Assembly: GCA_022453515.1 (NCBI GenBank)
Contig: JAJNNY010000126.1
Coordinates: 1-35,909, forward strand
DNA: 35,909 nt
Source of the DNA: Astrocystis sublimbata
Taxonomy: Eukaryota; Ascomycota; Sordariomycetes; Xylariales; Xylariaceae
Direction of reading: 5' to 3'
Shown piece after piece: positions 1-31,623 of the stretch. The position numbers were made by a program, and so were the translations under genes. The stretch's first letter is position 1. Every line of letters starts with the position of its first letter. The notes beneath the pieces are model-generated. The model did no database searches and had not been told where the DNA came from. It worked only from the letters and a program-made list of their open reading frames with translations.

Positions 1-417
1 ACCGACATGTGAGCTGACGTCTATGACGTTTGAATGCAAACTGCTTACCTGTGAGATCCTCAGCTTGTCGCAAGGGATCAATCTGGTTTCTTGGTGATCC
101 GTCACTATCTCCGATGTTTCGAGGATCGTAAATGAAAGCGTTGAAACCCGATGATTGGAATACTTCCGCAACATCTGGCAGGAGCATCTCTTTCACGCAA
201 TTGAACTACAACAGATTTAGCATGCTGCATCAGTAGTTTTGTACAACTCGAGTGGAGCATCGGACGATTATGAGTTCTATCTCGATGTTTTAAGACTTAC
301 CCCAGGTGTCATGATGATTGCGGGTGCCGGACCAGCAACTGCATAGAAACATCCCCGAATGGTCGTGTTGTCGATCGTCCGGCATTCTATGACTTGAAAT
401 GCGCTGATAGGAGCCAT
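1..417 (-). CDS. Alpha/beta hydrolase, 5' part only (left-arm copy)
   Basis: This is the mirror copy of the hydrolase start at 30449. The start codon is the CAT at 415-417. Exon 1 and exon 2, with the intron between them, are present, and the window begins inside intron 2. Only about 90 residues are encoded. The part with the nucleophile motif GMSFG, the acid and the histidine is missing, so this fragment alone cannot be an active enzyme. It is transcribed away from the left PKS copy, as in the right arm. It may be a truncated duplicate, an assembly edge, or a full gene that continues outside the window. No sequence difference from the right-arm exons was seen. Confidence 0.75.
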
Positions 418-1557
418 CTTAGAATATTCATGCACGTAGAATTCGACCTTTCAAAGCCACTAAGCACAGAGAGTTGATCTATAGCAAAGAAAATCTTCTG
501 ATAATTCGGGAACTTGATATCATATGGATGGTAAAGGGCGTTCCTCGTAATATGCTCAATTCGATTATCCTCGCACTATGACATCCGAATATCTGACGAA
601 GAGGCACGATAAAAGATTCACGTTAAATCTAGATCAACAAATAAACTGTTGGAGGATAGGAGCTCAACTTCGATCTCATGTACGTCAGATCTTGTGCCTC
701 CAATTAGAGGGCCTTAAAAGAAAGTTACAGAGCTACATTGCATGACTAGGTGAGGAATCGAATAAGCCTACCAATTCAATGTAGCAATGTAAGTGGGTCG
801 GGATAAAACCCCGATAATCTTCATCTCCATATATGCAACGTAATGTGGGTTAACAACTTATGCATGGCGAATGACCTAGAGGTATTGTAAGCTTATCCCT
901 CATGCAACCGCAAGATTATCAGCTTCTTATCGCCATAGAAACCTCTACCCAACCTGTTCTCTGTTTTTTTACGACTTTGATCTTACTACTCTCATGTCTC
1001 ATCAGCTGACGACGCATCGCCTGCGGTAGACTTCGTATGAGCCTCATGACGGGATTTCGGCCTCGGACATCAACCACCGAACAAAAAAAAGGCTTCCGTT
1101 TGCATGCATTCAGTATAATCGAAGAACATCATCGACGTATTGTCAGAGTCTGACTCTTACTAAGGGCCAATTACACACAAGTTGTGCCAATAGCATCATC
1201 AGTGGTGGTTGGTATCAGTTGAACGCCATGCCACAGTTTGCCACTATGACGCAGCAGAGCGGACTTCGGAGGCTTCGAAAGAGTAACCGTGCATGCGATA
1301 ACAGTAGAGAGTCTTGTTTGTTATGTCGCTGATCACCGATACTGCTGCCTTGTATAGGCAAACAATTGATGGCGCAGCTCGTTAGATCATATCCAACTTG
1401 CTGTGTTTTATCGCCATATATAACTGCAGCACACTTCTTAACAGCTCCACGATGCAATAGCAGGAACTCACACTCGTAACAAGCCGGCTCTTGTCAGAAA
1501 ACAGGAAGACTTGACAGAATTACCATTTTCACTCTTAGATCGTTCTACTTCAAAGCT
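418..1557. promoter_or_regulatory. Divergent promoter region, hydrolase/PKS (left copy)
   Basis: Gene-free stretch of about 1.1 kb between the divergent hydrolase and PKS starts, the usual layout for co-regulated cluster genes. A TATATAA box lies at 1417-1423 on the plus strand, about 135 nt before the PKS ATG. The region has T and A runs near 965 and 1083. Two one-base differences from the right arm fall near 650 and 849. I see no convincing pathway-specific binding site; near-matches to the tox-box are at chance level. Confidence 0.5.
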
Positions 1558-4500
1558 ATGGCGTCTTCACATTTCGTCCAGGAGCCAGTGGCCATCATTG
1601 GTTTTGCCTGTCGTTTGCCTGGCGGAAACACAAATCCCACGAAGCTCTGGAGCTTCCTCGAGAACGGCGGAGTGGCCTCAAACAAAGTCCCCAAGTCCAG
1701 ATTCAATATCGACGGGCACTGGGATGGTTCACATAAACCACGGACTATGCGCCCTTTGGGCGGTATGTTCTTGGACGGCATCGATCCAGCGGACTTCGAT
1801 GCCTCATTTTTCCAAATCTCAAAGGTGGAAGCAATCTCAATGGATCCAAACCAACGTCAAATGCTTGAAGTGGTTTTTGAGGGGCTGGAGAACTCTGGTG
1901 TCACTCTAGAAAGCCTCGATGGTGGTCCTGTGGGCTGCTTTGTGGGTTCTTTCGCCTCAGGTAAGTTCAAGTTATCTTCTTCCTTTTAAAGGTACACTGA
2001 TATTAACTCGAAACTATAGACTACGCCGACATGCAAACACGCGACCCGGAAGACCGACCGGCGAATATCACCGTAGGAGCCGGCCGCGCCATCTTAGCAA
2101 ACAGGCTGAGTCACTTCCTAAATATCAAAGGGCCGAGGCAAGCAACGCTCCGATCGAAAGCAAGAAATACAAGCTAACATGGGCGTATAGTATGACCATT
2201 GATACCGCCTGTTCCGGCAGCATGATTGGTGTTGATGTCGCCTGTCGCTACTTGCATTCACGTGAGATCGATACGGCTATCATTGCAACCAGCAATCTCT
2301 ATCTTAACCCAGAACATGTCATGGATACGGGGGCCGTCGGGAATGCCCATTCGCCTACAGGTCTATGTCACACTTTCGATGTTTCTGCGGACGGCTACGT
2401 CAAAGCGGAAGCCGTAAGTAGCCTGATAATCAAGCGGCTCTCTGACGCCATTCGTGATGGTGATCCCATTCGCGCAGTTATCCGGGGCTCCGCTAATAAC
2501 AGCGATGGTCGCACTCCTGGTATCGCTAGCCCCAGTGCCGAAGCCCAAGCCGTGGCTATTCGATCAGCCTACGCTAATGTGGGATCACCGACTTCAATGG
2601 TACAGCATATTTGGAATGCCACGGAACCGGCACGCAGGTAAATCATTGTCTGCAGAGTTTATTGCAATCAATCTGCTAACAAGCCGTAGGCTGGAGACCC
2701 GACTGAGGTCGGAGGCGCTAGCTCCGTATTTGCGGCCACACGCTCCGCAGACACGCCCCTGATTATTGGTTCGGTATGTTCACATACATTTAAATGCTGA
2801 TACCATGTTTTTCTTCTGTCCTTATCTTTCTGCACTAGTTAGCATACTGACATAATATCTTGCTAGATCAAAAGTAATGTAGGACACGCGGAACCAGCAG
2901 CAGGGATTTCGGGCCTCATGAAAGCCACAATGGCGATAGAAAAGGGGCTCATACCAGGAAATCCCACGTTCGAGAATCCTAGTCCCAAAAGTAAGGTATC
3001 TTTGGAATTTTTGAATATGTTCCGCCGCTGACATCAATTAGTTGATTTCGCCAGTTGGAAAGTCAAAGCTTCACGGACTGCTCTTCCATGGCCTGAGTGC
3101 TCTATACGACGCGCAAGTGTGAACTCATTTGGATATGGCGGTTCCAATGTCCATGTGGGTTTCTTCTCTTTAGCAACATCGAGGATTGTAGAACCGAACC
3201 GAAGCTAACTTATTGGTTCCCCAAGGTTGTTATCGAACAAGCGCCAGCCGTATCTGAAGGTCCACGCCATGTATCGTCGTATCTGTCGGATGATGACGAC
3301 TTCGACTTTGATAGGCAAGAAGCCGATCGGCCCTCGTTATTGGTGTTTTCGGCCAACGATGAAACCACCCTGAAGTCAAATGTTAATGGCATCGCCACTC
3401 ATCTGATGAACCCGCGGGTGAGCGTTGATCTCGCTGATCTCGCTTATACCCTTTCAGAAAAGCGCTCCAAACTTTTCCGAAGGGGTTTCATCACGACTAA
3501 AAGCACAGATCTTGACGAAAGCTCATTGACCACTGGAAAAAAGAAGTCCGAAACCCCAGGATTGGATTTGTGTTTACTGGTCAAGGTGCTCAATGGCCAC
3601 AAATGGGAAGGATTTGGTTACTTACTTTCCTTCCACCCGCCTGATTCTGGATGAGCTGGACCAAGTGTTGCAGGGTCTTCCCAGCCTCCTACATGGTCTC
3701 TTCTAAGTAAGCTTCTCTTCTCGAACGACTATCAAAAGCAAGCCGTTAACATGTGATAGGTGAATTGATTGAGCCACGCACGGCCGAACACCTTCGGCAG
3801 CCTGAGTTCTCTCAGCCTCTTGTGACGGCATTGCAGATCTGCATGCTCGCTGTCCTTAAGGATTGGGGTATCGCACCCCAGTGTGTGGTAGGTCATTCGT
3901 CTGGAGAGATTGCAGCGGCGTATGCTTCAGGTCATCTTTCTCGTTCCGATGCCATCAAAGCAGCTTTCTACAGAGGTCGCGCAGCGTTGAACTGCAAGTC
4001 GGAGACCGAGTCAAATGTTGGTATGCTGGCTGTTGGCTTAGGTGCTGAAGCCGTAGCTGCGTACCTGAAGAATTACGAGGGAAACGCATGGATTGCCTGC
4101 TACAACAGCCCCTCGAGCTTGACAATAGTGAGTACGACCATGGCTTTTCTTGGTTTCATCCAATGTTCAACATATAGATACTGACTCTGAGTTCATAGTC
4201 TGGGAGACAAAATGCCTTGGAAGCCCTCAGAGCCGATATATCCGGCGCAGGTTTCTTCGCAAGACTTCTGCAAGTTGACTTGGCTTACCACTCCAAGCTT
4301 ATGGGTGTTATCGGCGAAGAGTACCAAGCTCTCTTGGACAACGCCTTCAATCCCTTCACCGGCTCAACTGAGGTCGTCATGTACTCGTCAGTTCACGGCA
4401 CCAAAATGACGGACAAAATTACGGACACGGCGTATTGGAGAGCAAACATGGTTTCGCCAGTTCGGTTCGACGAGGCATTGACCACGATGCTTTCTGACAC

Positions 4501-7500
4501 TAATGCACCAAACTTCTTGATCGAGATCGGACCATCAGGTGCCCTTTCCGGCCCATTTCACAAATCAGGAAGGCTCTACCAGGCCAGGGCTCTGATGTCT
4601 CATACTTCCCGACGTGGTCCAGAGGTGCTGGTGCCGGAAAGTCAATCTTCGATCTTGCAGGTCACCTATTCGTCGCTGGAGGATCTGTAAATCTGGCCCA
4701 CGTCAATGAATATGATACTCAAGCGGTATTAGCCAATAGACCGCGAACAATCATTGACCTTCCCAACTACCATTGGAATCATTCGATCAAATATTGGCAC
4801 GAGAATGCCTCTAGCAAAGACTGGAGATTCAAGAGATTCGTCAACCATGATTTGCTTGGTAGCAAGATTCTCGGGACCTCATGGAAAACACCAACTGGGC
4901 GGAAGCTGTTGAACCTGGCAGACATCCCGTGGTTGAAGGATCATAAGATGGGGCCTGATGTCTTGATGCCCGGGTCTGGATACATTACCATGGCCCTTGA
5001 AGCCTTATACCAAAAGACAAAGGCTTTGGATACCACTGGAACCTATGTCGATGCTACTGCGAATGACCTTTGCTACCGATTCCGAGATACACGGTTCGAC
5101 AAAGCGCTTGTTTTGGAAGATGGGAAGGAGTCGGAAATCCTGCTAACATTGACTCAACAACCTGGTCCCAAAGTCTGGCATGAGTTCCGAATCTCATCAA
5201 TCAATGGGGACAACGAGATTGAGCACTGCTCAGGTCTGGTGCGTCTTCAAGATCCCATTGGGGAATCGGCAATTGACGACAAGGTTTCGCCCCCTACGAT
5301 ACCCTACATCTGGCCAGATGTGGTACAGAGCCCAAACAGAAGCAGGTTACGGATTTGGCCCCAGTTTCCAGAAGCTCCTCAGCGTCGAATCTAGAAGTGG
5401 ACGTAGACACGGTCGCAGTTTGGTATCGCTCTCCGAGCCCGAATCGAAGTGGGATCCCCAGTCCTACTACCCCATCCATCCGGCAGCTCTCGATGGTTGT
5501 TTTCAGACCGTGACACCTTCTCTGTGGGCAGGAGAGCGAAGCTCGATCAATGCGGTCTTAGTGCCCTCAATTATTGACGACCTTGGTGAGCACAATCCAT
5601 TTCATCTTCGAATGCATCTTTTAGCCACAAGAGATTGACTAACAAATGGTTTGCAGTCATCAACAAGTACCCGTGAACTTGACCGAGGGCCTTTCGGTAG
5701 CTAGCTCGGAATACACCGGTCGTGGCCGGACCGAGGAGGCAAAGAGCTATCTCGCAAACTGTGCCGTTTATGGCAGAGAAAACAGCACTCTCTTAATGCG
5801 TATGTCAGGCCTCCGCTTCGCCAAGCTCGATACCGGTGTTAAAGTCGACCCCCACGTCTTTAACGAGATCAGCTGGAAGCCAGACATTACTTTCATGACG
5901 CAGGATCGGCTGGATGGCCTGCTTGTCGCTGAGTCTGAGAACAAGCATGATTACGTGATTGATCTTGTGGCCCATAAGAAACCCGCCTTGAATGTGCTGG
6001 AGATTAACCTCGACCTGTCGGACTCTTCTTGCATGTGGTTTGAAGCTGGAGATGCTGCATCCAGAGCATCTTACCTTCGGTACGACTTCGCATCATCCGA
6101 TGCCAGGAACCTCATAGGTGTCCAGACAGCGCATGAGAGCAAGAGAAACTCTGCCTTCTACGTCATTAAGCCCGACAGCGAGAGGCTAGGCTTGACCGAG
6201 GGGGAATACAATCTTGTCATTGTGAAGATGTCTTCCGATGTAGACATCGACGTCACCACCCTCACACAGAACATCAAGCCGCTTCTGGCTCCCAGCAGTT
6301 TTGTGTTATGGACGCAACATGAAGCTGCCTTTATTCAGTCAGAGTCCGCAAGTGAGCACGAGAATGAATCCGTGAATGGTGTTGTCTTACCTAGCACGCC
6401 TAGATTTTCTGGTCACAATAGCACTGTTATAACGCCCACGCGTTCTATCCTAACAGTGTCCGACGCGATCGCGACCCCGCCAACTGTTTCAACACCTGCC
6501 AGCTCAGCCGGTGATACATCTGACCTGCAAGTGGACAAGAAGATGTTGGCGGAATTTGCCCAGAACCCATCGGACGAGGCCTTTGTCTCGAAGAAAGTTC
6601 AGCCCCTAATGGCAGCCCAGGAGCTCGGTACATCGTTGGAAATCCCTATGTCTACCTCTGGTATAGCAGCCTACTTGACCCGAGTCAAGGCAGCCGAACT
6701 AGACAATACAGCCGTCGAGACCTTGTCGTCGCGCGTTTTCAAGATGGTGCCCCAGAGCTCTCAACTGCTCTACGTGTCGGTCTCGAGGAGAATGGGTGGA
6801 ATGTGTTAAATCAAACATGCTCTTTCCCGGACGTGACTTCCAAGAGCGTAGTACTTGTTCTTGATGAATTGGACACTCCAGTCATGACCAAGATTGGCAA
6901 CCAACAGTGGGAAGGGTTGAAGGCTCTGATTAGTACTGGTGCTGTCATACTTTGGGTGACTCAGGGCGCCCAGTATCAGGTGACGAACCCCGACACAGCA
7001 CTTGCACACGGGCTGTTCCGTGTGGTGCGCATGGAAGATGCCAACGCCAAACTGGTTTGCCTCGATGTGCAGTCCAGCACAGCCGAGGATACGACTGCAG
7101 GCATCATCACCGAGCTTCTCGCTTCTCTGAGAGGTGAATGGCCAAAGAAAAACATCGAAACAGAATTCGCGGAGCGCGAAGGCCTTCTCTACATTCATCG
7201 CCTTGTCCCCGACCTCCAAGTCAACGAATTCAAGCGACAGGAAGCTGAGGGCGCGGAGCCAGTACCACAGTCGCTTCGCGAGAATCCTCGGCCTGTTTCA
7301 CTGCGCGTCGAAAGACTGGGCACTTTCCAGAGTTTGACTTGGAACGAGACAAATACTAGTGAAGTCCCCGTGCAGGATGGAAGAGTTGAAGTTGAGATCA
7401 TGGCTGTTGGAGTCAATTTCAAGGTAGATCTGATGATCCGTGAAGCATTGTCTGCATTGATACTAACGCATCGAAACTAATAGGATGTTGCCGTGACAAT

Positions 7501-9871
7501 GGGAATCGTTCCCGAGAACGAGTACACCCTTGGCTACGAAGCCTCAGGAGTTGTTACGAGACTTGGGCCAGGGGTAACAAAGTTCAAGGTCGGCGAACGT
7601 GTCTGCTTCTTGAACAACGGGAGCTACGCAAATCGTCTTCAGGTCCCTACTGGCCGAGCCCACGCCATTCCAGATAGCATGAGCTTTGAGGTGAGCGACC
7701 TTGTCGAGTCAAGTAATTCCTTGCAAGCAATTGTGCTCACTAATTGATAATAGGATGCTGCGACAATACCATCTGTTTACCTTGCCTCGATGTACTCCTT
7801 GTTCGATATGGCCAACCTGAAGAAGGGACAGGTAGTTTCTCCCGTGGATTCTGTTAGGCGTATCGATACTAACGGCATCCCAGTCCGTGCTCATCCACTC
7901 TGCATCTGGTGGTGTTGATATCTCAGCCATCCAGCTAGCTCAGTATATCGGGGCTAAAGTAAGTCTCACCCTGTCCAAATAGTACGCTGACAGATAGAGT
8001 GCTCGATACTAATAGACGCAGATTTACGTCACGGTCGGGACAGAGGAGAAGCGAAATTTCTTAGCCGAAAACTTTGGTATCCCGCGAGAGCACATGTTCT
8101 CTTCTCGTCACACCGGATTCGCTAAAGAAATCCTCCGCGCAACAGGTGGGCGAGGTGTTGATGTCATCTTGAACTCCCTTACGGGAGAGATGCTTGACGA
8201 GTCGTGGCGTATCTGTGCAGATGGCGGTATCATGGTTGAAATCGGGAAAAAGGACATTGTCGACCGCAACAGTCTTTCCATGGAGCCATTTGATCGTAAC
8301 TGCTCGTTCCGGGCCATGGATTTCTCGTACACCAATGACATATCCGATGCCCTTATCGAAAGGTAGGACTTAACCAAACTCTCTCGGGCACTTCATGACA
8401 GTCGTTGCTAATCTCCCGCTTTTAGATTGTTAGATCAAATATTTGATCTCGTCAATTCGGGACACATCGGTCCTGTGCACCCAATTACTACATTTGGTTT
8501 TGACGAGGTCGGATCCGCCCTTGCATACATCCGTAGCGGACGTCACATGGGCAAGGTTGTCGTTTCTGATATGGGGCGACGGGATGTAGAGGTTCCTATT
8601 CGGCCGGCGCTTGATCAATTGTGCCTCCGTGGCGATGCCTCTTATCTGATTGTGGGTGGCCTGAAGGGTCTATGCGGCAACTTGGCGATCCATATGGCAC
8701 GCCACGGTGCTAAGCACATCATCGTATGCTCGCGCAGTGGCATTTACGATGAGCAATCAGCCAAAACAATTCTGAATTGCGAAGCCTACGGCTGTGCTGT
8801 CACAGAAGCCAAGGGCGACGCTGGGAATAGGGACTTTGTGGAAAAGGTATTCTCGGAGGCTACACCGGCTGTGGCGGGTGTCATCATGGGGGCTATGGTT
8901 TTAAGGGTAAGTCAATGTCTGAGCATCGCCTACTTCCTTAAACCACCATGACGCTCGACCCCATCATCACAAACACCATCATCACGGTGCTCCTTCTGAA
9001 CCACCACTGACCACGTTAAACCTGGCAGGACAAGCCTTACGAGACAATGAGCCTGGAGGAGTACCATGCTGCCATCTATGGCAAAGTGCACGGTACATGG
9101 AACCTGCATCATGTTTCACTACAGCAGAGTCAGCCGCTCGAGTTCTTTACTATGCTATCCAGCATATCGGGAATCGTTGGGAAGAAAGGGCAAACGAATT
9201 ACTCCGCTGGTAATACGTTCTTAGACGCGTTCGCTTACTACCGCCAATCGCTCGGGCTACGAGCGAATACCGTCGATCTTGGCCTGATCGAGGACGTGGG
9301 GTATATCGCTGAACAAGGAGGTATGGATAGTCATTTCGACAGGACCCAGTGGGAACCCATCTATGAGGGAACATTGCGCAAGATCCTTTGCTACTCCGTC
9401 TTACAGCAGACCGCCCCTATCAACCGTGCCACATCCGCACAGCTCGTCACGGGCATATCCTTCCCGCTCCCATCGCATTCGGATCTGAGCCGAGAAGCGA
9501 GATTCGCACATCTGTTTGTGGCGAGCTCGGCCGGTGCCTCGGCAGGGGAGGGCAGCCAGGCCGATCAGGAGATTCGCACGTTCCTTATGATGGTCAAGGC
9601 CAAGTCGGACAGGACTGCACTTGCCAAGATGGCGGTCGAACTTCTGGTCTCACAACTGACCAAGATTCTGCGGCTAGAGACGGAGATGGAACCGGCCAAA
9701 TCCCTCCTCGCGTACGGGACCGACTCTCTGGCGGCGGTTGAATTGCGCAACTGGGTGCGTGTAGAGTTGGGGGCGGAACTCACGACTCTTGACATCACCA
9801 ACGCCGCGTCGATCAACAGCCTGGCGGAGAAACTCGTGTCCAAGATTCCCGAAAGCGCAGCTGCGTCATAA
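1558..9871 (+). CDS. Highly reducing type I polyketide synthase (left copy, frameshifted as written)
   Basis: Iterative HR-PKS, KS-AT-DH-(vestigial MeT)-pseudoKR-ER-KR-ACP, about 2,436 residues once indels are allowed for. Key residues, in that numbering: KS Cys181 in DTACSGS, with HGTGTQ and NVGHAEP histidines; AT Ser638 in GHSSGE; DH His963 in [10 protein letters not shown] and Asp1146 in [19 protein letters not shown] with Ser2200/2201 and Tyr2214; ACP Ser2389 in [14 protein letters not shown]. The MeT region has [10 protein letters not shown] in place of a Gly-rich SAM motif, so no C-methylation is expected. There is no thioesterase, reductase or condensation domain. Introns: 1961-2019, 2138-2190 (GC-AG), 2638-2689, 2774-2866, 2991-3041, 3155-3225, 3707-3759, 4128-4198, 5586-5656 or 5667, 7424-7483, 7691-7753, 7832-7883, 7959-8021, 8363-8425, 8907-9028. 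One-base breaks lie near 2579, 3557, 3607, 3681, 4551, 5292 and 6713; all are intact in the other arm. Position 4897 changes a conserved Trp to Gly. Confidence 0.93.
2138..2190 (+). other. GC-AG intron in PKS ketosynthase (left copy)
   Basis: Joining 2137 to 2191 gives the uninterrupted ketosynthase stretch ending in DTACSGS. The intron begins GCAAGC and ends TATAG, with a GCTAAC branch site at about 2173-2178. It is 53 nt long. The other PKS introns I placed begin with GT. The mirror copy is 28678-28730 on the minus strand. Confidence 0.8.
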
Positions 9872-11006
9872 CGGTTATAGATATGATGGGTTCAGGATGT
9901 CCTGTCGCCATAGGCCCCTAGCTGCTCCGGGATCCAAGGCAGGCAGCCTCCTGCATCAGCTCGCCTACATTAGCTGTACTTTGCATGCATTGTCACGCCA
10001 GGGCTGGGCTGGTCTTTCAGTATTAATGCGGCCATAGCTTGCCATACCTAGGTAGTAAGAGAAATGCTCTCGTTTCCATATCTCCACCGTCAGAATACTG
10101 CGCCAAACAACAGTGTGTTGCGTCTTCATATCTGAATCAAAAGATGTCGACATCTTTTCTCTCGTTGCATCATCCTAGCAGGCCGGCAACGGCAGGTCTG
10201 AAAGATATTAGCGAGGGAGGGCGGGGAAGGCTATCTTACTACCTACTTAGACTTGTCTACCTAGGCGCTTGAGGCGGAACGATAGCCCAGCCTCTCCCGA
10301 CGCCACTGTTTATTTCTGTCACTCCTTGGACAAGCGGAGAGTTAAACTGTCATGAATCATGGCAATGTAACGTCGGGGTGGGTTCAAAGTTGCCCAAGTT
10401 ACAACAGCAGAATGCCGTGAGAATATAGTGGGATTTAGTTCGATTCGCTTCAGCATTATATGGTAGCTCGCTACAACTCGCATTACGTACCTATGTTGGT
10501 AGGTTAGCAGTCTGAAGTTCGAGCGACGTCATGCGGACAACAGCCAATTGGATAATTATGCATGAACACTTTACTTGGGCTGCCTAGCTGGGCGGCTCAA
10601 GCCTGTAATACCGACGAACGGCCCGTGCTTTGTTAGTCAGTGTCCGGCGGTGCGGCAGTGTACGCCAACTGCATGGCGGATTCCGCTCTGGAGCCGCTCA
10701 TGGCGCACATACCGGTACATGATTTGGTATGTGTTGATGTGATTCGGGAATGCAGAATCTCGGATAGTTACCTGAGTCGTGGATAGTCGCTTGCCTTATG
10801 TTTGGCTATCGATCATATATACGAAATAAATGTAATTGGGCAGAGATAAGATATGAAAATGCCATAGTCAATTGACGTTCTCACTCTCGTCGCTCCGCTG
10901 TTGCATAGGCCGCGTACTCGGACTGTAAACCAGGAATAAACAAGGTGAATCGGCTATTTATGATTGGTAGTAAAGCGACGCCACTGCTCAAACGCTAAAC
11001 TAGGGC

Positions 11007-11015
11007 TATAAAAGG
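11007..11015 (+). promoter_or_regulatory. TATAAAAGG box in gene-poor stretch
   Basis: A perfect TATAAAAGG stands in a 2.5-kb region with no recognised gene. The first downstream ATG is near 11094 and opens only a 24-codon frame. It may be a promoter remnant of a decayed LTR element or of an unrecognised short transcript. The mirror copy is 19847-19855. Confidence 0.25.
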
Positions 11016-11490
11016 CAAGTGGGCAGATATAGATTTACCTTCCTCGCCTACCGCGGCGATGTATTCAAATCTAAATTCTCTAGAAAGAAAAACATGTTTC
11101 AACTAAACGAAACCAATTTGTATGCAAATACTAAAACTTACGTTGTTGGTGCTTTGTTCATAAGCTAGGCCTCAAAGTAAACTCAAGCGTTGTAGAAAGT
11201 GCCTGAAAGAGGGCTATTCTCCGCAATCCGGGCTGATTTCTTGCTCCTTTCGCATTAGTTCATAGCCCAGTATGTGACCGTGAACTCGGCATGCTCGGGA
11301 CCAAAACGCCAAGAGACGCTAGCCATGGAATCTGCAGCCAGCTGAAATCTGAAGCTCCAGTACCTTAACTTGAATGTGTTTTGGGCCCCTCGGAGCCCAT
11401 ACTTCGTACAAGGAGCTACAGACATAACAGTAGTAAGTACTCTGTCGATCTGTCCCGATCATTCCGAGATAGCATAGATCTCGGTTAAGA

Positions 11491-11722
11491 TACAAGTCAC
11501 CAGGATGATGATAGTTAGCTCAACGCCAGATATCAGAATAGCAGGAGTACTGCTGTTCACAAGGCTGTTATGCAGTCGTTTTTGCGACATTCAAGCCCCG
11601 GTTGAGTACTAAGTGGATAAACCTTTCGCAGTATCATACCAAAAGAGAAAAGAGGACCAAAAATCTCCTAACAGTACAAGTCTTTGGCGTCGAGCTAACC
11701 ATTATTATCCTGGTGGCCTGTA
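11491..11722. repeat. Imperfect 40-nt inverted repeat, transition-only differences
   Basis: Bases 11491-11530, reverse complemented, match 11683-11722 at 33 of 40 positions. All seven mismatches are transitions (C/T or A/G), the pattern expected if RIP acted on a repeated element. The spacer is about 150 nt. Mirror copies are at 19139-19178 and 19331-19370. It could be the remains of terminal repeats of a small element; no coding part was seen. Confidence 0.6.
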
Positions 11723-11869
11723 GCTTCCTCCGCTAGCAGGGAGGCTATGGGACTGAGCATAAACAAGACCTCGTCAGGCTGTTCATAAGCGCTACTGGCC
11801 GTTGAACCCAACAACGGAAAACGCGGGACGTATACGCACGCGACTATAGAGTCTGTCTGGATAGATTCG

Positions 11870-18461: not shown

Positions 18462-20989
18462 TGCTGGTCTGGTTGGGTCATCCAACCATCAATCGACTTG
18501 TCTATCACACGGCTATCTGTCTTTCGGATGGAAATCTGACAGCATCGATGCTTGAACGTCGGGACAGGCAGTGTTGCGGAATGGACTCGATATTGATGCG
18601 ACAGTAGTTGTAGTCATGTATTGGCACTTGTACGGAACGGACGTCCTGCATTCCATCGTGGCTTTCTCTCCTTGTCCTGAGTAAGTCGGTATGTAAGCGA
18701 CAAGATGGGACGATGGGACAATGCGGCTGTTGGCGCTCCTTGAGGTTAGCTGTATGGGGGTCCAGTAGCGCCACCGACGTCGTGGCATGTGGACTAGGAG
18801 TCAGCAGTACTTGGGGGCCATCACTTTATTCACCTCGGCTTGCAGGCCAATCTGTAGTTGTATGTATAAACTTGCTCTGTAACTGTACGTATAGGCACAC
18901 CACTCCATAGGTAGCCGTATGCATATATTACTCGACAGTCGTATATACAGATCACGCTGCAGCCGTATGTGAATACCACCATGCAGTCGTACGAATCTAT
19001 CCAGACAGACTCTATAGTCGCGTGCGTATACGTCCCGCGTTTTCCGTTGTTGGGTTCAACGGCCAGTAGCGCTTATGAACAGCCTGACGAGGTCTTGTTT
19101 ATGCTCAGTCCCATAGCCTCCCTGCTAGCGGAGGAAGCTACAGGCCACCAGGATAATAATGGTTAGCTCGACGCCAAAGACTTGTACTGTTAGGAGATTT
19201 TTGGTCCTCTTTTCTCTTTTGGTATGATACTGCGAAAGGTTTATCCACTTAGTACTCAACCGGGGCTTGAATGTCGCAAAAACGACTGCATAACAGCCTT
19301 GTGAACAGCAGTACTCCTGCTATTCTGATATCTGGCGTTGAGCTAACTATCATCATCCTGGTGACTTGTATCTTAACCGAGATCTATGCTATCTCGGAAT
19401 GATCGGGACAGATCGACAGAGTACTTACTACTGTTATGTCTGTAGCTCCTTGTACGAAGTATGGGCTCCGAGGGGCCCAAAACACATTCAAGTTAAGGTA
19501 CTGGAGCTTCAGATTTCAGCTGGCTGCAGATTCCATGGCTAGCGTCTCTTGGCGTTTTGGTCCCGAGCATGCCGAGTTCACGGTCACATACTGGGCTATG
19601 AACTAATGCGAAAGGAGCAAGAAATCAGCCCGGATTGCGGAGAATAGCCCTCTTTCAGGCACTTTCTACAAACGCTTGAGTTTACTTTGAGGCCTAGCTT
19701 ATGAACAAAGCACCAACAACGTAAGTTTTAGTATTTGCATACAAATTGGTTTCGTTTAGTTGAAACATGTTTTTCTTTCTAGAGAATTTAGATTTGAATA
19801 CATCGCCGCGGTAGGCGAGGAAGGTAAATCTATATCTGCCCACTTGCCTTTTATAGCCCTAGTTTAGCGTTTGAGCAGTGGCGTCGCTTTACTACCAATC
19901 ATAAATAGCCGATTCACCTTGTTTATTCCTGGTTTACAGTCCGAGTACGCGGCCTATGCAACAGCGGAGCGACGAGAGTGAGAACGTCAATTGACTATGG
20001 CATTTTCATATCTTATCTCTGCCCAATTACATTTATTTCGTATATATGATCGATAGCCAAACATAAGGCAAGCGACTATCCACGACTCAGGTAACTATCC
20101 GAGATTCTGCATTCCCGAATCACATCAACACATACCAAATCATGTACCGGTATGTGCGCCATGAGCGGCTCCAGAGCGGAATCCGCCATGCAGTTGGCGT
20201 ACACTGCCGCACCGCCGGACACTGACTAACAAAGCACGGGCCGTTCGTCGGTATTACAGGCTTGAGCCGCCCAGCTAGGCAGCCCAAGTAAAGTGTTCAT
20301 GCATAATTATCCAATTGGCTGTTGTCCGCATGACGTCGCTCGAACTTCAGACTGCTAACCTACCAACATAGGTACGTAATGCGAGTTGTAGCGAGCTACC
20401 ATATAATGCTGAAGCGAATCGAACTAAATCCCACTATATTCTCACGGCATTCTGCTGTTGTAACTTGGGCAACTTTGAACCCACCCGACGTTACATTGCC
20501 ATGATTCATGACAGTTTAACTCTCCGCTTGTCCAAGGAGTGACAGAAATAAACAGTGGCGTCGGGAGAGGCTGGGCTATCGTTCCGCCTCAAGCGCCTAG
20601 GTAGACAAGTCTAAGTAGGTAGTAAGATAGCCTTCCCCGCCCTCCCTCGCTAATATCTTTCAGACCTGCCGTTGCCGGCCTGCTAGGATGATGCAACGAG
20701 AGAAAAGATGTCGACATCTTTTGATTCAGATATGAAGACGCAACACACTGTTGTTTGGCGCAGTATTCTGACGGTGGAGATATGGAAACGAGAGCATTTC
20801 TCTTACTACCTAGGTATGGCAAGCTATGGCCGCATTAATACTGAAAGACCAGCCCAGCCCTGGCGTGACAATGCATGCAAAGTACAGCTAATGTAGGCGA
20901 GCTGATGCAGGAGGCTGCCTGCCTTGGATCCCGGAGCAGCTAGGGGCCTATGGCGACAGGACATCCTGAACCCATCATATCTATAACCG
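18462..20989. other. 2.5-kb gene-poor stretch between bANK and PKS (right copy)
   Basis: Mirror of 9872-12399, including the 24-nt array (18856-18991), the transition-only inverted repeat (19139-19370) and the TATA-like box (19847-19855, minus strand). Differences from the left arm that I saw here are one base near 20488 (GGG here, GGGG in the left arm) and one near 19672 (an extra T equivalent here). No gene is recognised. Confidence 0.6.
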
Positions 20990-23900
20990 TTATGACGCAG
21001 CTGCGCTTTCGGGAATCTTGGACACGAGTTTCTCCGCCAGGCTGTTGATCGACGCGGCGTTGGTGATGTCAAGAGTCGTGAGTTCCGCCCCCAACTCTAC
21101 ACGCACCCAGTTGCGCAATTCAACCGCCGCCAGAGAGTCGGTCCCGTACGCGAGGAGGGATTTGGCCGGTTCCATCTCCGTCTCTAGCCGCAGAATCTTG
21201 GTCAGTTGTGAGACCCAGAAGTTCGACCGCCATCTTGGCAAGTGCAGTCCTGTCCGACTTGGCCTTGACCATCATAAGGAACGTGCGAATCTCCTGATCG
21301 GCCTGGCTGCCCTCCCCTGCCGAGGCACCGGCCGAGCTCGCCACAAACAGATGTGCGAATCTCGCTTCTCGGCTCAGATCCGAATGCGATGGGAGCGGGA
21401 AGGATATGCCCGTGACGAGCTGTGCGGATGTGGCACGGTTGATAGGGGCGGTCTGCTGTAAGACGGAGTAGCAAAGGATCTTGCGCAATGTTCCCTCATA
21501 GATGGGTTCCCACTGGGTCCTGTCGAAATGACTATCCATACCTCCTTGTTCAGCGATATACCCCACGTCCTCGATCAGGCCAAGATCGACGGTATTCGCT
21601 CGTAGCCCGAGCGATTGGCGGTAGTAAGCGAACGCGTCTAAGAACGTATTACCAGCGGAGTAATTCGTTTGCCCTTTCTTCCCAACGATTCCGATATGCT
21701 GGATAGCATAGTAAAGAACTCGAGCGGCTGACTCTGCTGTAGTGAAACATGATGCAGGTTCCATGTACCGTGCACTTTGCCATAGATGGCAGCATGGTAC
21801 TCCTCCAGGCTCATTGTCTCGTAAGGCTTGTCCTGCCAGGTTTAACGTGGTCAGTGGTGGTTCAGAAGGAGCACCGTGATGATGGTGTTTGTGATGATGG
21901 GGTCGAGCGTCATGGTGGTTTAAGGAAGTAGGCGATGCTCAGACATTGACTTACCCTTAAAACCATAGCCCCCATGATGACACCCGCCACAGCCGGTGTA
22001 GCCTCCGAGAATACCTTTTCCACAAAGTCCCTATTCCCAGCGTCGCCCTTGGCTTCTGTGACAGCACAGCCGTAGGCTTCGCAATTCAGAATTGTTTTGG
22101 CTGATTGCTCATCGTAAATGCCACTGCGCGAGCATACGATGATGTGCTTAGCACCGTGGCGTGCCATATGGATCGCCAAGTTGCCGCATAGACCCTTCAG
22201 GCCACCCACAATCAGATAAGAGGCATCGCCACGGAGGCACAATTGATCAAGCGCCGGCCGAATAGGAACCTCTACATCCCGTCGCCCCATATCAGAAACG
22301 ACAACCTTGCCCATGTGACGTCCGCTACGGATGTATGCAAGGGCGGATCCGACCTCGTCAAAACCAAATGTAGTAATTGGGTGCACAGGGACCGATGTGT
22401 CCCGAATTGACGAGATCACATATTTGATCTAACAATCTAAAAGCGGGAGATTAGCAACGACTGTCATGAGTGCCCGAGAGAGTTTGGTTAAGTCCTACCT
22501 TTCGATAAGGGCATCGGATATGTCATTGGTGTACGAGAAATCCATGGCCCGGAACGAGCAGTTACGATCAAATGGCTCCATGGAAAGACTGTTGCGGTCG
22601 ACAATGTCCTTTTTCCCGATTTCAACCATGATACCGCCATCTGCACAGATACGCCACGACTCGTCAAGCATCTCTCCCGTAGGGAGTTCAAGATGACATC
22701 AACACCTCGCCCACCTGTTGCGCGGAGGATTCTTTAGCGAATCCGGTGTGACGAGAAGAGAACATGTGCTCTCGCGGGATACCAAAGTTTTCGGCTAAGA
22801 AATTTCGCTTCTCCTCTGTCCCGACCGTGACGTAAATCTGCGTCTATTAGTATCGAGCACTCTATCTGTCAGCGTACTATTTGGACAGGGTGAGACTTAC
22901 TTTAGCCCCGATATACTGAGCTAGCTGGATGGCTGAGATATCAACACCACCAGATGCAGAGTGGATGAGCACGGACTGGGATGCCGTTAGTATCGATACG
23001 CCTAACAGAATCCACGGGAGAAACTACCTGTCCCTTCTTCAGGTTGGCCATATCGAACAAGGAGTACATCGAGGCAAGGTAAACAGATGGTATTGTCGCA
23101 GCATCCTATTATCAATTAGTGAGCACAATTGCTTGCAAGGAATTACTTGACTCGACAAGGTCGCTCACCTCAAAGCTCATGCTATCTGGAATGGCGTGGG
23201 CTCGGCCAGTAGGGACCTGAAGACGATTTGCGTAGCTCCCGTTGTTCAAGAAGCAGACACGTTCGCCGACCTTGAACTTTGTTACCCCTGGCCCAAGTCT
23301 CGTAACAACTCCTGAGGCTTCGTAGCCAAGGGTGTACTCGTTCTCGGGAACGATTCCCATTGTCACGGCAACATCCTATTAGTTTTCGATGCGTTAGTAT
23401 CAATGCAGACAATGCTTCACGGATCATCAGATCTACCTTGAAATTGACTCCAACAGCCATGATCTCAACTTCAACTCTTCCATCCTGCACGGGGACTTCA
23501 CTAGTATTTGTCTCGTTCCAAGTCAAACTCTGGAAAGTGCCCAGTCTTTCGACGCGCAGTGAAAACAGGCCGAGGATTCTCGCGAAGCGACTGTGGTACT
23601 GGCTCCGCGCCCTCAGCTTCCTGTCGCTTGAATTCGTTGACTTGGAGGTCGGGGACAAGGCGATGAATGTAGAGAAGGCCTTCGCGCTCCGCGAATTCTG
23701 TTTTCGATGTTTTTCTTTGGCCATTCACCTCTCAGAGAAGCGAGAAGCTCGGTGATGATGCCTGCAGTCGTATCCTCGGCTGTGCTGGACTGCACATCGA
23801 GGCAAACCAGTTTGGCGTTGGCATCTTCCATGCGCACCACACGGAACAGCCCGTGTGCAAGTGCTGTGTCGGGGTTCGTCACCTGATACTGGGCGCCCTG

Positions 23901-26900
23901 AGTCACCCAAAGTATGACAGCACCAGTACTAATCAGAGCCTTCAACCCTTCCCACTGTTGGTTGCCAATCTTGGTCATGACTGGAGTGTCCAATTCATCA
24001 AGAACAAGTACTACGCTCTTGGAAGTCACGTCCGGGAAAGAGCATGTTTGATTTAACACATTCCACCCATTCTCCTCGAGACCGACACGTAGAGCAGTTG
24101 AGAGCTCTGGGGCACCATCTTGAAAACGCGCGACGACAAGGTCTCGACGGGCTGTATTGTCTAGTTCGGCTGCCTTGACTCGGGTCAAGTAGGCTGCTAT
24201 ACCAGAGGTAGACATAGGGATTTCCAACGATGTACCGAGCTCCTGGGCTGCCATTAGGGGCTGAACTTTCTTCGAGACAAAGGCCTCGTCCGATGGGTTC
24301 TGGGCAAATTCCGCCAACATCTTCTTGTCCACTTGCAGGTCAGATGTATCACCGGCTGAGCTGGCAGGTGTTGAAACAGTTGGCGGGGGTCGCGATCGCG
24401 TCGGACACTGTTAGGATAGAACGCGTGGGCGTTATAACAGTGCTATTGTGACCAGAAAATCTAGGCGTGCTAGGTAAGACAACACCATTCACGGATTCAT
24501 TCTCGTGCTCACTTGCGGACTCTGACTGAATAAAGGCAGCTTCATGTTGCGTCCATAACACAAAACTGCTGGGAGCCAGAAGCGGCTTGATGTTCTGTGT
24601 GAGGGTGGTGACGTCGATGTCTACATCGGAAGACATCTTCACAATGACAAGATTTGTATTCCCCCTCGGTCAAGCCTAGCCTCTCGCTGTCGGGCTTAAT
24701 GACGTAGAAGGCAGAGTTTCTCTTGCTCTCATGCGCTGTCTGGACACCTATGAGGTTCCTGGCATCGGATGATGCGAAGTCGTACCGAAGGTAAGATGCT
24801 CTGGATGCAGCATCTCCAGCTTCAAACCACATGCAAGAAGAGTCCGACAGGTCGAGGTTAATCTCCAGCACATTCAAGGCGGGTTTCTTATGGGCCACAA
24901 GATCAATCACGTAATCATGCTTGTTCTCAGACTCAGCGACAAGCAGGCCATCCAGCCGATCCTGCGTCATGAAAGTAATGTCTGGCTTCCAGCTGATCTC
25001 GTTAAAGACGTGGGGGTCGACTTTAACACCGGTATCGAGCTTGGCGAAGCGGAGGCCTGACATACGCATTAAGAGAGTGCTGTTTTCTCTGCCATAAACG
25101 GCACCAGTTTGCGAGATAGCTCTTTGCCTCCTCGGTCCGGCCACGACCGGTGTATTCCGAGCTAGCTACCGAAAGGCCCTCGGTCAAGTTCACGGGTACT
25201 TGTTGATGACTGCAAACCATTTGTTAGTCAATCTCTTGTGGCTAAAAGATGCATTCGAAGATGAAATGGATTGTGCTCACCAAGGTCGTCAATAATTGAG
25301 GGCACTAAGACCGCATTGATCGAGCTTCGCTCTCCTGCCCACAGAGAAGGTGTCACGGTCTGAAAACAACCATCGAGAGCTGCCGGATGGATGGGGTAGT
25401 AGGACTGGGGATCCCACTTCGATTCGGGCTCGGAGAGCGATACCAAACTGCGACCGTGTCTACGTCCACTTCTAGATTCGACGCTGAGGAGCTTCTGGAA
25501 ACTGGGGCCAAATCCGTAACCTGCTTCTGTTTGGGCTCTGTACCACATCTGGCCAGATGTAGGGTATCGTAGGGGCGAAACCTTGTCGTCAATTGCCGAT
25601 TCCCCAATGGGATCTTGAAGACGCACCAGACCTGAGCAGTGCTCAATCTCGTTGTCCCATTGATTGATGAGATTCGGAACTCATGCCAGACTTTGGGACC
25701 AGGTTGTTGAGTCAATGTTAGCAGGATTTCCGACTCCTTCCCATCTTCCAAAACAAGCGCTTTGTCGAACCGTGTATCTCGGAATCGGTAGCAAAGGTCA
25801 TTCGCAGTAGCATCGACATAGGTTCCAGTGGTATCCAAAGCCTTTGTCTTTTGGTATAAGGCTTCAAGGGCCATGGTAATGTATCCAGACCCGGGCATCA
25901 AGACATCAGGCCCCATCTTATGATCCTTCAACCACGGGATGTCTGCCAGGTTCAACAGCTTCCGCCAAGTTGGTGTTTTCCATGAGGTCCCGAGAATCTT
26001 GCTACCAAGCAAATCATGGTTGACGAATCTCTTGAATCTCCAGTCTTTGCTAGAGGCATTCTCGTGCCAATATTTGATCGAATGATTCCAATGGTAGTTG
26101 GGAAGGTCAATGATTGTTCGCGGTCTATTGGCTAATACCGCTTGAGTATCATATTCATTGACGTGGGCCAGATTTACAGATCCTCCAGCGACGAATAGGT
26201 GACCTGCAAGATCGAAGATTGACTTTCCGGCACCAGCACCTCTGGACCACGTCGGGAAGTATGAGACATCAGAGCCCTGGCCTGGTAGAGCCTTCCTGAT
26301 TTGTGAAATGGGCCCGGAAAGGGCACCTGATGGTCCGATCTCGATCAAGAAGTTTGGTGCATTAGTGTCAGAAAGCATCGTGGTCAATGCCTCGTCGAAC
26401 CGAACTGGCGAAACCATGTTTGCTCTCCAATACGCCGTGTCCGTAATTTTGTCCGTCATTTTGGTGCCGTGAACTGACGAGTACATGACGACCTCAGTTG
26501 AGCCGGTGAAGGGATTGAAGGCGTTGTCCAAGAGAGCTTGGTACTCTTCGCCGATAACACCCATAAGCTTGGAGTGGTAAGCCAAGTCAACTTGCAGAAG
26601 TCTTGCGAAGAAACCTGCGCCGGATATATCGGCTCTGAGGGCTTCCAAGGCATTTTGTCTCCCAGACTATGAACTCAGAGTCAGTATCTATATGTTGAAC
26701 ATTGGATGAAACCAAGAAAAGCCATGGTCGTACTCACTATTGTCAAGCTCGAGGGGCTGTTGTAGCAGGCAATCCATGCGTTTCCCTCGTAATTCTTCAG
26801 GTACGCAGCTACGGCTTCAGCACCTAAGCCAACAGCCAGCATACCAACATTTGACTCGGTCTCCGACTTGCAGTTCAACGCTGCGCGACCTCTGTAGAAA

Positions 26901-29310
26901 GCTGCTTTGATGGCATCGGAACGAGAAAGATGACCTGAAGCATACGCCGCTGCAATCTCTCCAGACGAATGACCTACCACACACTGGGGTGCGATACCCC
27001 AATCCTTAAGGACAGCGAGCATGCAGATCTGCAATGCCGTCACAAGAGGCTGAGAGAACTCAGGCTGCCGAAGGTGTTCGGCCGTGCGTGGCTCAATCAA
27101 TTCACCTATCACATGTTAACGGCTTGCTTTTGATAGTCGTTCGAGAAGAGAAGCTTACTTAGAAGAGACCATGTAGGAGGCTGGGGAAGACCCTGCAACA
27201 CTTGGTCCAGCTCATCCAGAATCAGGCGGGTGGAAGGAAAGTAAGTAACCAAATCCTTCCCCATTTGTGGCCATTGAGCACCTTGACCAGTAAACACAAA
27301 TCCAATCCTGGGGGTTTCGGACTTCTTTTTTCCAGTGGTCAATGAGCTTTCGTCAAGATCTGTGCTTTTAGTCGTGATGAAACCCCTTCGGAAAAGTTTG
27401 GAGCGCTTTTCTGAAAGGGTATAAGCGAGATCAGCGAGATCAACGCTCACCCGCGGGTTCATCAGATGAGTGGCGATGCCATTAACATTTGACTTCAGGG
27501 TGGTTTCATCGTTGGCCGAAAACACCAATAACGAGGGCCGATCGGCTTCTTGCCTATCAAAGTCGAAGTCGTCATCACGACAGATACGACGATACATGGC
27601 GTGGACCTTCAGATACGGCTGGCGCTTGTTCGATAACAACCTTGGGGGAACCAATAAGTTAGCTTCGGTTCGGTTCTACAATCCTCGATGTTGCTAAAGA
27701 GAAGAAACCCACATGGACATTGGAACCGCCATATCCAAATGAGTTCACACTTGCGCGTCGTATAGAGCACTCAGGCCATGGAAGAGCAGTCCGTGAAGCT
27801 TTGACTTTCCAACTGGCGAAATCAACTAATTGATGTCAGCGGCGGAACATATTCAAAAATTCCAAAGATACCTTACTTTTGGGACTAGGATTCTCGAACG
27901 TGGGATTTCCTGGTATGAGCCCCTTTTCTATCGCCATTGTGGCTTTCATGAGGCCCGAAATCCCTGCTGCTGGTTCCGCGTGTCCTACATTACTTTTGAT
28001 CTAGCAAGATATTATGTCAGTATGCTAACTAGTGCAGAAAGATAAGGACAGAAGAAAAACATGGTATCAGCATTTAAATGTATGTGAACATACCGAACCA
28101 ATAATCAGGGGCGTGTCTGCGGAGCGTGTGGCCGCAAATACGGAGCTAGCGCCTCCGACCTCAGTCGGGTCTCCAGCCTACGGCTTGTTAGCAGATTGAT
28201 TGCAATAAACTCTGCAGACAATGATTTACCTGCGTGCCGGTTCCGTGGCATTCCAAATATGCTGTACCATTGAAGTCGGTGATCCCAGCATTAGCGTAGG
28301 CTGATCGAATAGCCACGGCTTGGGCTTCGGCACTGGGGCTAGCGATACCAGGAGTGCGACCATCGCTGTTATTAGCGGAGCCCCGGATAACTGCGCGAAT
28401 GGGATCACCATCACGAATGGCGTCAGAGAGCCGCTTGATTATCAGGCTACTTACGGCTTCCGCTTTGACGTAGCCGTCCGCAGAAACATCGAAAGTGTGA
28501 CATAGACCTGTAGGCGAATGGGCATTCCCGACGGCCCCCGTATCCATGACATGTTCTGGGTTAAGATAGAGATTGCTGGTTGCAATGATAGCCGTATCGA
28601 TCTCACGTGAATGCAAGTAGCGACAGGCGACATCAACACCAATCATGCTGCCGGAACAGGCGGTATCAATGGTCATACTATACGCCCATGTTAGCTTGTA
28701 TTTCTTGCTTTCGATCGGAGCGTTGCTTGCCTCGGCCCTTTGATATTTAGGAAGTGACTCAGCCTGTTTGCTAAGATGGCGCGGCCGGCTCCTACGGTGA
28801 TATTCGCCGGTCGGTCTTCCGGGTCGCGTGTTTGCATGTCGGCGTAGTCTATAGTTTCGAGTTAATATCAGTGTACCTTTAAAAGGAAGAAGATAACTTG
28901 AACTTACCTGAGGCGAAAGAACCCACAAAGCAGCCCACAGGACCACCATCGAGGCTTTCTAGAGTGACACCAGAGTTCTCCAGCCCCTCAAAAACCACTT
29001 CAAGCATTTGACGTTGGTTTGGATCCATTGAGATTGCTTCCACCTTTGAGATTTGGAAAAATGAGGCATCGAAGTCCGCTGGATCGATGCCGTCCAAGAA
29101 CATACCGCCCAAAGGGCGCATAGTCCGTGGTTTATGTGAACCATCCCAGTGCCCGTCGATATTGAATCTGGACTTGGGGACTTTGTTTGAGGCCACTCCG
29201 CCGTTCTCGAGGAAGCTCCAGAGCTTCGTGGGATTTGTGTTTCCGCCAGGCAAACGACAGGCAAAACCAATGATGGCCACTGGCTCCTGGACGAAATGTG
29301 AAGACGCCAT
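20990..29310 (-). CDS. Highly reducing type I polyketide synthase (right copy, frameshifted as written)
   Basis: Mirror copy of the HR-PKS at 1558-9871, with the same order KS-AT-DH-vestigial MeT-pseudoKR-ER-KR-ACP, the same intron set and no release domain. The AT through the first half of DH is continuous here (about 25660-26650), where the left copy is broken. Breaks peculiar to this copy lie near 27577 (two bases missing), 25657, 25104, 24654, 24387, 23702, 23563, 22731, 22681, 22389, 21691 and 21215. A substitution at 22419 changes Phe to Cys after the ER. All these sites read normally in the left arm. The product should act in the cytosol on malonyl-CoA with NADPH, giving a reduced chain bound to the ACP. 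The start is [16 protein letters not shown], a normal KS beginning. If the inverted repeat is artefactual, this is the same gene as the left copy. Confidence 0.93.
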
Positions 29311-30448
29311 AGCTTTGAAGTAGAACGATCTAAGAGTGAAAATGGTAATTCTGTCAAGTCTTCCTGTTTTCTGACAAGAGCCGGCTTGTTACGAGTGTGA
29401 GTTCCTGCTATTGCATCGTGGAGCTGTTAAGAAGTGTGCTGCAGTTATATATGGCGATAAAACACAGCAAGTTGGATATGATCTAACGAGCTGCGCCATC
29501 AATTGTTTGCCTATACAAGGCAGCAGTATCGGTGATCAGCGACATAACAAACAAGACTCTCTACTGTTATCGCATGCACGGTTACTCTTTCGAAGCCTCC
29601 GAAGTCCGCTCTGCTGCGTCATAGTGGCAAACTGTGGCATGGCGTTCAACTGATACCAACCACCACTGATGATGCTATTGGCACAACTTGTGTGTAATTG
29701 GCCCTTAGTAAGAGTCAGACTCTGACAATACGTCGATGATGTTCTTCGATTATACTGAATGCATGCAAACGGAAGCCTTTTTTTTGTTCGGTGGTTGATG
29801 TCCGAGGCCGAAATCCCGTCATGAGGCTCATACGAAGTCTACCGCAGGCGATGCGTCGTCAGCTGATGAGACATGAGAGTAGTAAGATCAAAGTCGTAAA
29901 AAAACAGAGAACAGGTTGGGTAGAGGTTTCTATGGCGATAAGAAGCTGATAATCTTGCGGTTGCATGAGGGATAAGCTTACAATACCTCTAGGTCATTCG
30001 CCATGCATAAGTTGTTAACCACATTACGTTGCATATATGGAGATGAAGATTATCGGGGTTTTATCCCGACCCACTTACATTGCTACATTGAATTGGTAGG
30101 CTTATTCGATTCCTCACCTAGTCATGCAATGTAGCTCTGTAACTTTCTTTTAAGGCCCTCTAATTGGAGGCACAAGATCTGACGTACATGAGATCGAAGT
30201 TGAGCTCCTATCCTCCAACAGTTATTTGTTGATCTAGATTTAACGTGAATCTTTTATCGTGCCTCTTCGTCAGATATTCGGATGTCATAGTGCGAGGATA
30301 ATCGAATTGAGCATATTACGAGGAACGCCCTTTACCATCCATATGATATCAAGTTCCCGAATTATCAGAAGATTTTCTTTGCTATAGATCAACTCTCTGT
30401 GCTTAGTGGCTTTGAAAGGTCGAATTCTACGTGCATGAATATTCTAAG
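29311..30448. promoter_or_regulatory. Divergent promoter region, PKS/hydrolase (right copy)
   Basis: About 1.1 kb between the PKS start (minus) and the hydrolase start (plus). The TATATAA box serving the PKS is at 29445-29451 on the minus strand. A divergent start pair with one shared upstream region suggests joint control of synthase and hydrolase. No confident operator was found. This copy lacks one A and one G that the left copy has. Confidence 0.5.
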
Positions 30449-31623
30449 ATGGCTCCTATCAGCGCATTTCAAGTCATAGAATGCCGGACGATCGACAACA
30501 CGACCATTCGGGGATGTTTCTATGCAGTTGCTGGTCCGGCACCCGCAATCATCATGACACCTGGGGTAAGTCTTAAAACATCGAGATAGAACTCATAATC
30601 GTCCGATGCTCCACTCGAGTTGTACAAAACTACTGATGCAGCATGCTAAATCTGTTGTAGTTCAATTGCGTGAAAGAGATGCTCCTGCCAGATGTTGCGG
30701 AAGTATTCCAATCATCGGGTTTCAACGCTTTCATTTACGATCCTCGAAACATCGGAGATAGTGACGGATCACCAAGAAACCAGATTGATCCCTTGCGACA
30801 AGCTGAGGATCTCACAGGTAAGCAGTTTGCATTCAAACGTCATAGACGTCAGCTCACATGTCGGTATCACTGGCAGACATCATCACACACATCAGTGCTC
30901 TCCCAAGTGTCGATGCATCGCAAATTACCCTTTGGGGCATGTCATTTGGTGCCACGGTCAGTGCTTGCACAGCTTCTCTGGATCGTCGCGTCAAAGCACT
31001 AGTGATGGTCTGTCCTATTCTAAGCTTCGTAAAGCCCGAAAAGCGTGAAAAAGCCTTCGTTCAAATCATCAAGGACCGGCAATCCCAACTTCGCGGCAAC
31101 GAAGCGTTCACGCTGCCGCCTTTCAATGCCAGGGGCGAGAACCCAATCGGGATGGCGGGCTCGGGAGGGCCCGGCGGCCTCGAATCGTTCCAATTCATGA
31201 ATGCCGTGATCGATAGGGGCGCGCCCAGCTTTCGCAATCGCATCACTCTGCAGTCGTACTACAAGTTGGCACTGTTCGAGCCGAAGTCACTGCTTTGTAT
31301 GCTTGATGTGACACCCGTCATGATGATTGTACCTGAGTTAGGTAAGTTGAGATCCTCAGTTTTGAGAGTCCGTTGCAGCGCACGAAAAGAGATTGCTATG
31401 AATATGGACAATTAGAAGTTGAAGACTAATGAATCACTATAGATGCCATGTCGCCACCCGAGGAGCAAATGAAGCTTTTGAGAAGTTCCAGCAGCCCAAG
31501 GAGTTGTATACTGTCAAAGGCAAAGGACATTTGACCGTCTTGAGCGGAGATGGTTCGGAAAAGGTTTCGCAGGCACAGATTCAGTTCCTGGAGGCAATTC
31601 TTCACGGAGGGCTCGCTGATTAG
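30449..31623 (+). CDS. Alpha/beta hydrolase, PKS-partner type (full-length, one-base frameshift)
   Basis: Predicted hydrolase of about 300 residues. Exons: 30449-30565, 30661-30817, 30877-31341 and 31443-31623. The nucleophile elbow is WGMSFGAT (exon 3). The acid is likely the Asp formed across the last splice, before AMSPPEEQ, and the histidine lies in KGKGHLTVL near the end. Similar hydrolases beside fungal HR-PKS genes include the fumagillin polyketide transferase Af380/Fma-AT and related trans-acting enzymes. They release or transfer the chain when the PKS lacks its own thioesterase. The neighbouring PKS does lack one, which supports the same role (inference). In exon 4 the frame shifts at about 31474: the expected MKAFEKF needs one more G in GAAGC. 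This lies outside the inverted repeat. The first two exons lie inside it. Confidence 0.82.

Follow-up and report, generated by a model that had tools for sequence, protein, structure and literature searches.

Gene content and structure of the window

The stretch of DNA analysed here (the window; 35,909 nt) is the whole of contig JAJNNY010000126.1 of Astrocystis sublimbata, positions 1-35909, referred to below as C31. When the window is compared with itself by BLASTN, positions 1-30865 align to 30865-1 in a single long inverted match with 99.786% identity, bearing out the giant inverted repeat that an earlier note had described from the sequence. The 4 mismatches and 60 gap openings of this match are counted twice, which makes 2 substitutions and some 30 indels for each arm. 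The arms are thus approximately 15.4 kb long and 99.8% alike, and at such length chance is no issue as an origin. A fold-back artefact is expected to show arms that mirror each other almost perfectly across a small spacer or none. The features of the window are as follows.

1-15415, minus strand: left arm of the fold-back, mirror of the right arm with a second copy of each right-arm feature (self-BLAST 99.786%; 99.9% to C123:340366-324915)
15188-15672, no strand: edge of an AT-rich degraded dispersed repeat, mirrored by the fold (98-99% identity of C31:15188-15444 and of 15416-15672 to the fold region of C123)
15416-15422, no strand: left half (TTACTAG) of a native 7-bp inverted repeat, the presumed snap-back site (comparison with C123)
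15423-15437, no strand: fold loop of 15 nt that resembles the reversed 14-nt native loop
15438-15444, no strand: right half (CTAGTAA) of the native 7-bp inverted repeat (comparison with C123)
15445-30865, plus strand: right arm of the fold-back (self-BLAST; matches to C123)
15613-16044, plus strand: weak protein-kinase-like piece, a relic (PF00069 at E 3.2e-5, short of the curated threshold); mirrored in the left arm
17241-18488, minus strand: ankyrin-repeat ORF, a putative regulator (PF12796, E 7.3e-27); mirrored in the left arm
20993-29388, minus strand: highly reducing polyketide synthase (HR-PKS) in exon pieces (Pfam); mirrored in the left arm
30866-35909, plus strand: part that is single-copy within C31 and lies inside the C123 palindrome (containment in C123; Pfam pieces)

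Pfam identifies ketosynthase (KS), acyltransferase (AT), dehydratase (DH), enoyl-reductase-type (ER; ADH_N and zinc dehydrogenase), KR and ACP pieces in the right arm, all on its minus strand. All of the domains sought for an HR-PKS are therefore represented, in exon pieces, while no methyltransferase matched among the HR-PKS pieces scanned. The earlier note had placed an HR-PKS, a bANK regulator and kinase relics in each arm. The synthase and the ankyrin part of the regulator are supported in outline by these matches; the kinase relics are reduced to one weak piece with a sub-threshold score. Beyond the arm, 30866-35909 carries alpha/beta-hydrolase-like (from 30846), short-chain dehydrogenase and FAD/berberine-bridge oxidase pieces, which at 30846-35760 adjoin the HR-PKS. 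The best named match of the oxidase (34228-35760) comes from Xylaria curta, at 77%.

The same locus is folded on a second contig

We searched the assembly (42,594,959 bases in 189 contigs) with two probes from the window. A 1.5-kb probe from outside the C31 palindrome (31000-32500) matched C31 once and a second contig, C123, twice in opposed orientation, along with two weak matches elsewhere. A probe from within the arm matched C123 and C31 twice each and C137 once, weakly, over 66 bases, and so revealed no unfolded contig for the window's locus.

Over the part of C123 that we read (250001-350059 of 350059 bases), positions 299203-350058 form one inverted repeat with its centre at 324630.5 and 99.83% identity (totals of 18 mismatches and 62 gap openings, in which each difference appears twice). 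The final 50.9 kb of C123 are the window's locus, folded, with 25.4-kb arms. C31 is contained in it entirely, with a full-length match in both directions at 99.85-99.9%: the right arm and its outer extension match C123:324915-345412 at 99.87% and C123:324355-303854 at 99.85%. Compared with C31, C123 has about 560 extra bases at its centre. The earlier note had assumed unique sequence past 30865, and this did not hold, as 30866-35909 falls inside the longer palindrome of C123.

Neither palindrome ends at a boundary within sequence. C31 starts within an arm, and the palindrome of C123 stops one base short of the contig end (350058 of 350059). In both contigs the mirror is bounded by the end of the contig, as expected for an artefact. 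A probe from outside the C123 palindrome (C123:290001-291500) is single copy in the assembly.

The fold points lie in an AT-rich repeat

The fold centres of C31 and C123 are approximately 280 bp apart, and C123 runs past the point at which C31 folds before folding itself. At both folds the GC content drops to 5-11% in C123, with the C31 fold at the edge of this stretch. The sequence belongs to a dispersed AT-rich repeat with at least 60 matches on at least 35 contigs, 40 of the 80 candidates of a first look having been scored. Its copies on C35 and C28 open with TGTCACGAACC, are presumably LTR-like, and continue past both fold points. No long inverted repeat is present near these two copies in the 3.5 and 3.3 kb read; the C35 region contains one self-mirroring stretch of 57 bases (84.7%) and the C28 region none. 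The alignment of repeat copies was used within the repeat only, and its C130 row did not align.

Comparison with C123 shows how the centre of C31 is arranged. The native order in C123 is TTACTAG, 14 bases, CTAGTAA. In C31 the left arm leads into TTACTAG, a 15-base loop and CTAGTAA, followed by the mirrored arm. The C31 loop aligns to the reversed native loop at a score of 23 (18 for the forward direction), with one mismatch and an insertion of one base; no loop among 2000 shuffles reached this score. The 3-nt spacer that the earlier note had reported is correct locally, because the innermost hairpin spans 15416-15444 (TTACTAG, CTTAC, TTATA, GTAAG, CTAGTAA). The native segment 324100-324631 of C123 contains 26 stems of 7 bp (loops up to 30), compared to a mean of 3.75 in shuffles, and a 7-bp match occurs in 31 of 15,576 possible switch pairs.

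This arrangement of the C31 centre is consistent with snap-back of a DNA end, a step that we infer from it. However, the short inverted repeat bounding the loop (7-bp stem, 14-nt native loop) is common to snap-back artefacts and to fold-back duplications formed in vivo, which leave a similar repeat, so that the C31 junction alone cannot decide between them.

Differences between the arm copies

We aligned the four arm copies, two from C31 and two from C123:303854-345412. With the junction left aside, 41 columns vary, comprising 39 single-base indels, mostly within or beside single-base runs, and 2 substitutions. All but one of the columns are private to one copy, and 33 of these 40 are on C31 (22 in its right arm and 11 in its left arm, with 6 in the first arm of C123 and 1 in the second). 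The remaining column, common to two copies, falls in a run of C. Over 299220-324300 we count 10 single-base indels and zero substitutions between the arms of C123, while the last 265 or so bases before its centre hold 37 differences, mostly A versus T. The outermost 17 or so bases of its palindrome are end noise. These differences look like consensus error in poorly covered sequence rather than the divergence of two old copies. Two haplotypes as the source of C31 can be rejected on this pattern of private differences (40 of 41) and single-base indels (39 of 41).

Unrelated contigs carry similar folds

Folds at or near a contig end, again the position expected of an artefact, were found on six further, unrelated contigs. 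For all except C23, the ends and the centre were compared rather than whole arms.

C172, 110927-127368: contig end 127368; found through the repeat search
C130, 269916-311294: contig end 311298; found through the repeat search
C9, 15101-67814 at least: contig end 67950; 15101-15970 mirrors 67814-66951; found through the repeat search
C132, 259224-296260: contig end 296260; found through mirrored telomere words
C23, 1-4728: contig start; 99.87%; centre in DNA of about 20% GC
C59, 1-11392: contig start; ordinary composition, GC about 0.55

Among the 35 listed contigs that bear the dispersed repeat, five have folds (C172, C130, C9, C31 and C123). From the remaining 30 we read C35 and C28 around the repeat, which both contigs pass straight through, and C149 at its start only. 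We also fetched 20 contig starts at even steps and searched six of them, all of ordinary GC, against the genome. Two (C23 and C59) have an inverted copy in their own contig; in the other four (C176, C5, C14 and C140) such a copy of the start is absent. Two small contigs were read whole: C86 has no fold, and C95 has no long fold, although a 571-base stretch near its start (381-951) mirrors itself at 91.6%.

C59 gives the clearest evidence, in that its locus also occurs on a large contig, C126 (332,434 bases). The start of C59 matches C126:214089-214585 and its centre matches C126:208870-209000, each once on C126. Below 208870, in the 1,000 bases of C126 that were read (208001-209000), C126 diverges from C59:4201-7200. 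This locus is therefore present both folded and unfolded: folded on the small contig, and unfolded on the large one, which crosses the fold point. The C59/C126 pair differs in this respect from C31 and C123, which are both folded.

The fold on C132 is more complex. Positions 272001-283489 mirror themselves at 97.2%, and 259224-260200 mirrors 296260-295285, at the contig end, at 99.9% with zero mismatches. Within C132:275001-280492, the two sides of the inverted repeat are 94.25% alike, and 154 of the 156 substitutions are transitions. These differences lie in one stretch of approximately 1.75 kb, with the 154 transitions (most often at CpA, 69), 2 transversions and a few indels. The inner 750 or so bases have 2 differences, and each arm contains two short TTAGGG arrays. 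We considered a real inverted pair altered by repeat-induced point mutation and rejected it. The mirror extends to the contig end, and C132 is therefore another contig-terminal fold-back, for which the point-mutation argument is withdrawn. Our guess is that another copy of the repeat probably leaked into the consensus of one arm. The divergent stretch is probably a telomere-associated element whose consensus in one arm was mixed with another copy.

Origin of the palindrome

Taken together, these results make it very likely that the C31 palindrome is a fold-back artefact, in which chimeric molecules or reads were taken into the assembly. The earlier note had offered this reading beside that of a real doubled locus. 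The artefact is strongly supported by the containment of C31 in C123, the two centres, the stops at contig ends, the indel pattern, the other folds and the C59/C126 pair, while the doubled locus, with the raised gene dosage and hairpin RNA proposed for it, is unsupported. What decides the matter is the spread over unrelated contigs, the contig-end stops, the two centres and the C59/C126 pair. The palindrome does exist as a string of letters in the assembly, but very likely not in the genome.

In the proposed sequence of events, a DNA end in the AT-rich repeat would snap back on a short inverted repeat, and the snapped-back end would be copied or read into its own complement. Such chimeras could have originated in library preparation, amplification or sequencing. 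The assembler would then likely have retained them twice, as the separate contig C31 and as the last 25 kb of C123. Several observations sit less comfortably with this account. Two contigs fold near one place, unlike the outcome of one random bad read, which calls for two or more chimeric molecules or for a site prone to folding. The window's locus turned up on folded contigs only, unlike the C59/C126 pair; four of the six contig starts searched, as well as C86, show no fold. Finally, the 154 transitions of C132 go beyond simple sequencing error, and there we suspect consensus mixing.

Palindromic reads are known to arise from missed adapters, unsplit strands and amplification and to disturb assemblies (PMC12870357, PMC6218980). 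The first of these reports, the Breakinator paper, adds that fold-back long reads can tangle the assembly graph (PMC12870357). The fold-back artefacts described there resemble the present case as near-perfect palindromes, often with nothing between the halves, but they are in reads, whereas the fold here is in assembled contigs. The whole-genome-amplification chimeras treated in the Pacasus report (PMC6218980) likewise gave artificial inverted duplications in an assembly, resolved by cleaning the reads; those chimeras arise after amplification, whereas here amplification is one of several possible sources.

These same sources describe missed hairpin adapters (PacBio) and unsplit template and complement strands (nanopore), either of which might have produced the palindrome in place of a snapped-back end. 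The centre of C130, which has no visible loop, would suit such an origin. At C31, by contrast, neither a missed adapter nor a blunt strand switch would be likely to produce a loop matching the native loop and a 7-bp inverted repeat, and we regard this other kind of artefact as unlikely.

A real fold-back in vivo would begin with a broken end in the AT-rich repeat that folds and is copied, giving an inverted-dimer or hairpin-capped chromosome in some nuclei, with two such events 280 bp apart. The 7-bp inverted repeat flanking the short loop of C31 is a signature also described in human genomes (PMC3907307), and a real inverted dimer would give a similar contig tail limited by read length. As in those duplications, a short inverted repeat stands at the loop edge. 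The loop here, however, is about 14 nt, compared with spacers of mostly a few kilobases in the cases cited, and here there are two fold points at one locus and several unrelated folded contigs, one with an unfolded version. The six unrelated folds and the passage of C126 across the C59 fold point unfolded both argue against events in the nucleus. One junction is expected per event, so that two centres about 280 bp apart need two independent events. The end of the second arm should carry a new telomere or other sequence, and the palindromes stop at contig ends instead. The resulting chromosome would, by inference, also be dicentric and unstable. An in-vivo origin is accordingly very improbable. 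The broader proposal, that AT-rich degraded retroelement ends are fragile sites that fold back in vivo and leave some nuclei with inverted-dimer ends and doubled gene clusters, is fainter still.

A fold at a telomere was rejected, as neither C31 nor C123:250001-350059 contains an exact TTAGGG pair, an absence that also counts against the in-vivo reading; among the places listed, long TTAGGG arrays occur on C15, C143 and C156. A segmental inverted duplication that is old and stable, its two PKS loci homogenised by gene conversion, would account for near-identical arms carrying a whole biosynthetic gene, but its probability is close to nil given that no boundary leaves the mirror, with C31 beginning in an arm and the C123 palindrome ending one base from the contig end, and that the two contigs disagree on the centre.

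Consequences for the record

If the palindrome is a fold-back artefact, the HR-PKS locus is most likely present once in the genome, near 300-324 kb of C123. The HR-PKS and the hydrolase-like, dehydrogenase and oxidase pieces probably constitute one biosynthetic cluster. Taken at face value the record would mislead, as it displays two HR-PKS loci in the window and four copies in the assembly in place of the one that the genome most likely contains. Fold-back contigs should be removed before gene counts, cluster predictions or claims of gene dosage and hairpin RNA are drawn from this assembly. Were the in-vivo reading true instead, the folds would represent break-induced palindromes at degraded repeats in a fungus.

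Some contigs also overlap others or begin in unusual sequence. Relative to C126:208870-214585, C59 is a folded, redundant small contig. C5:1-500 is 100% identical to C153:183943-184442 in the same direction, and on this match C5 is possibly another redundant contig. The starts of C32 and C41 (1-500 in each) have GC contents of 0.00 and 0.19, respectively, and consist of simple or extreme AT sequence.
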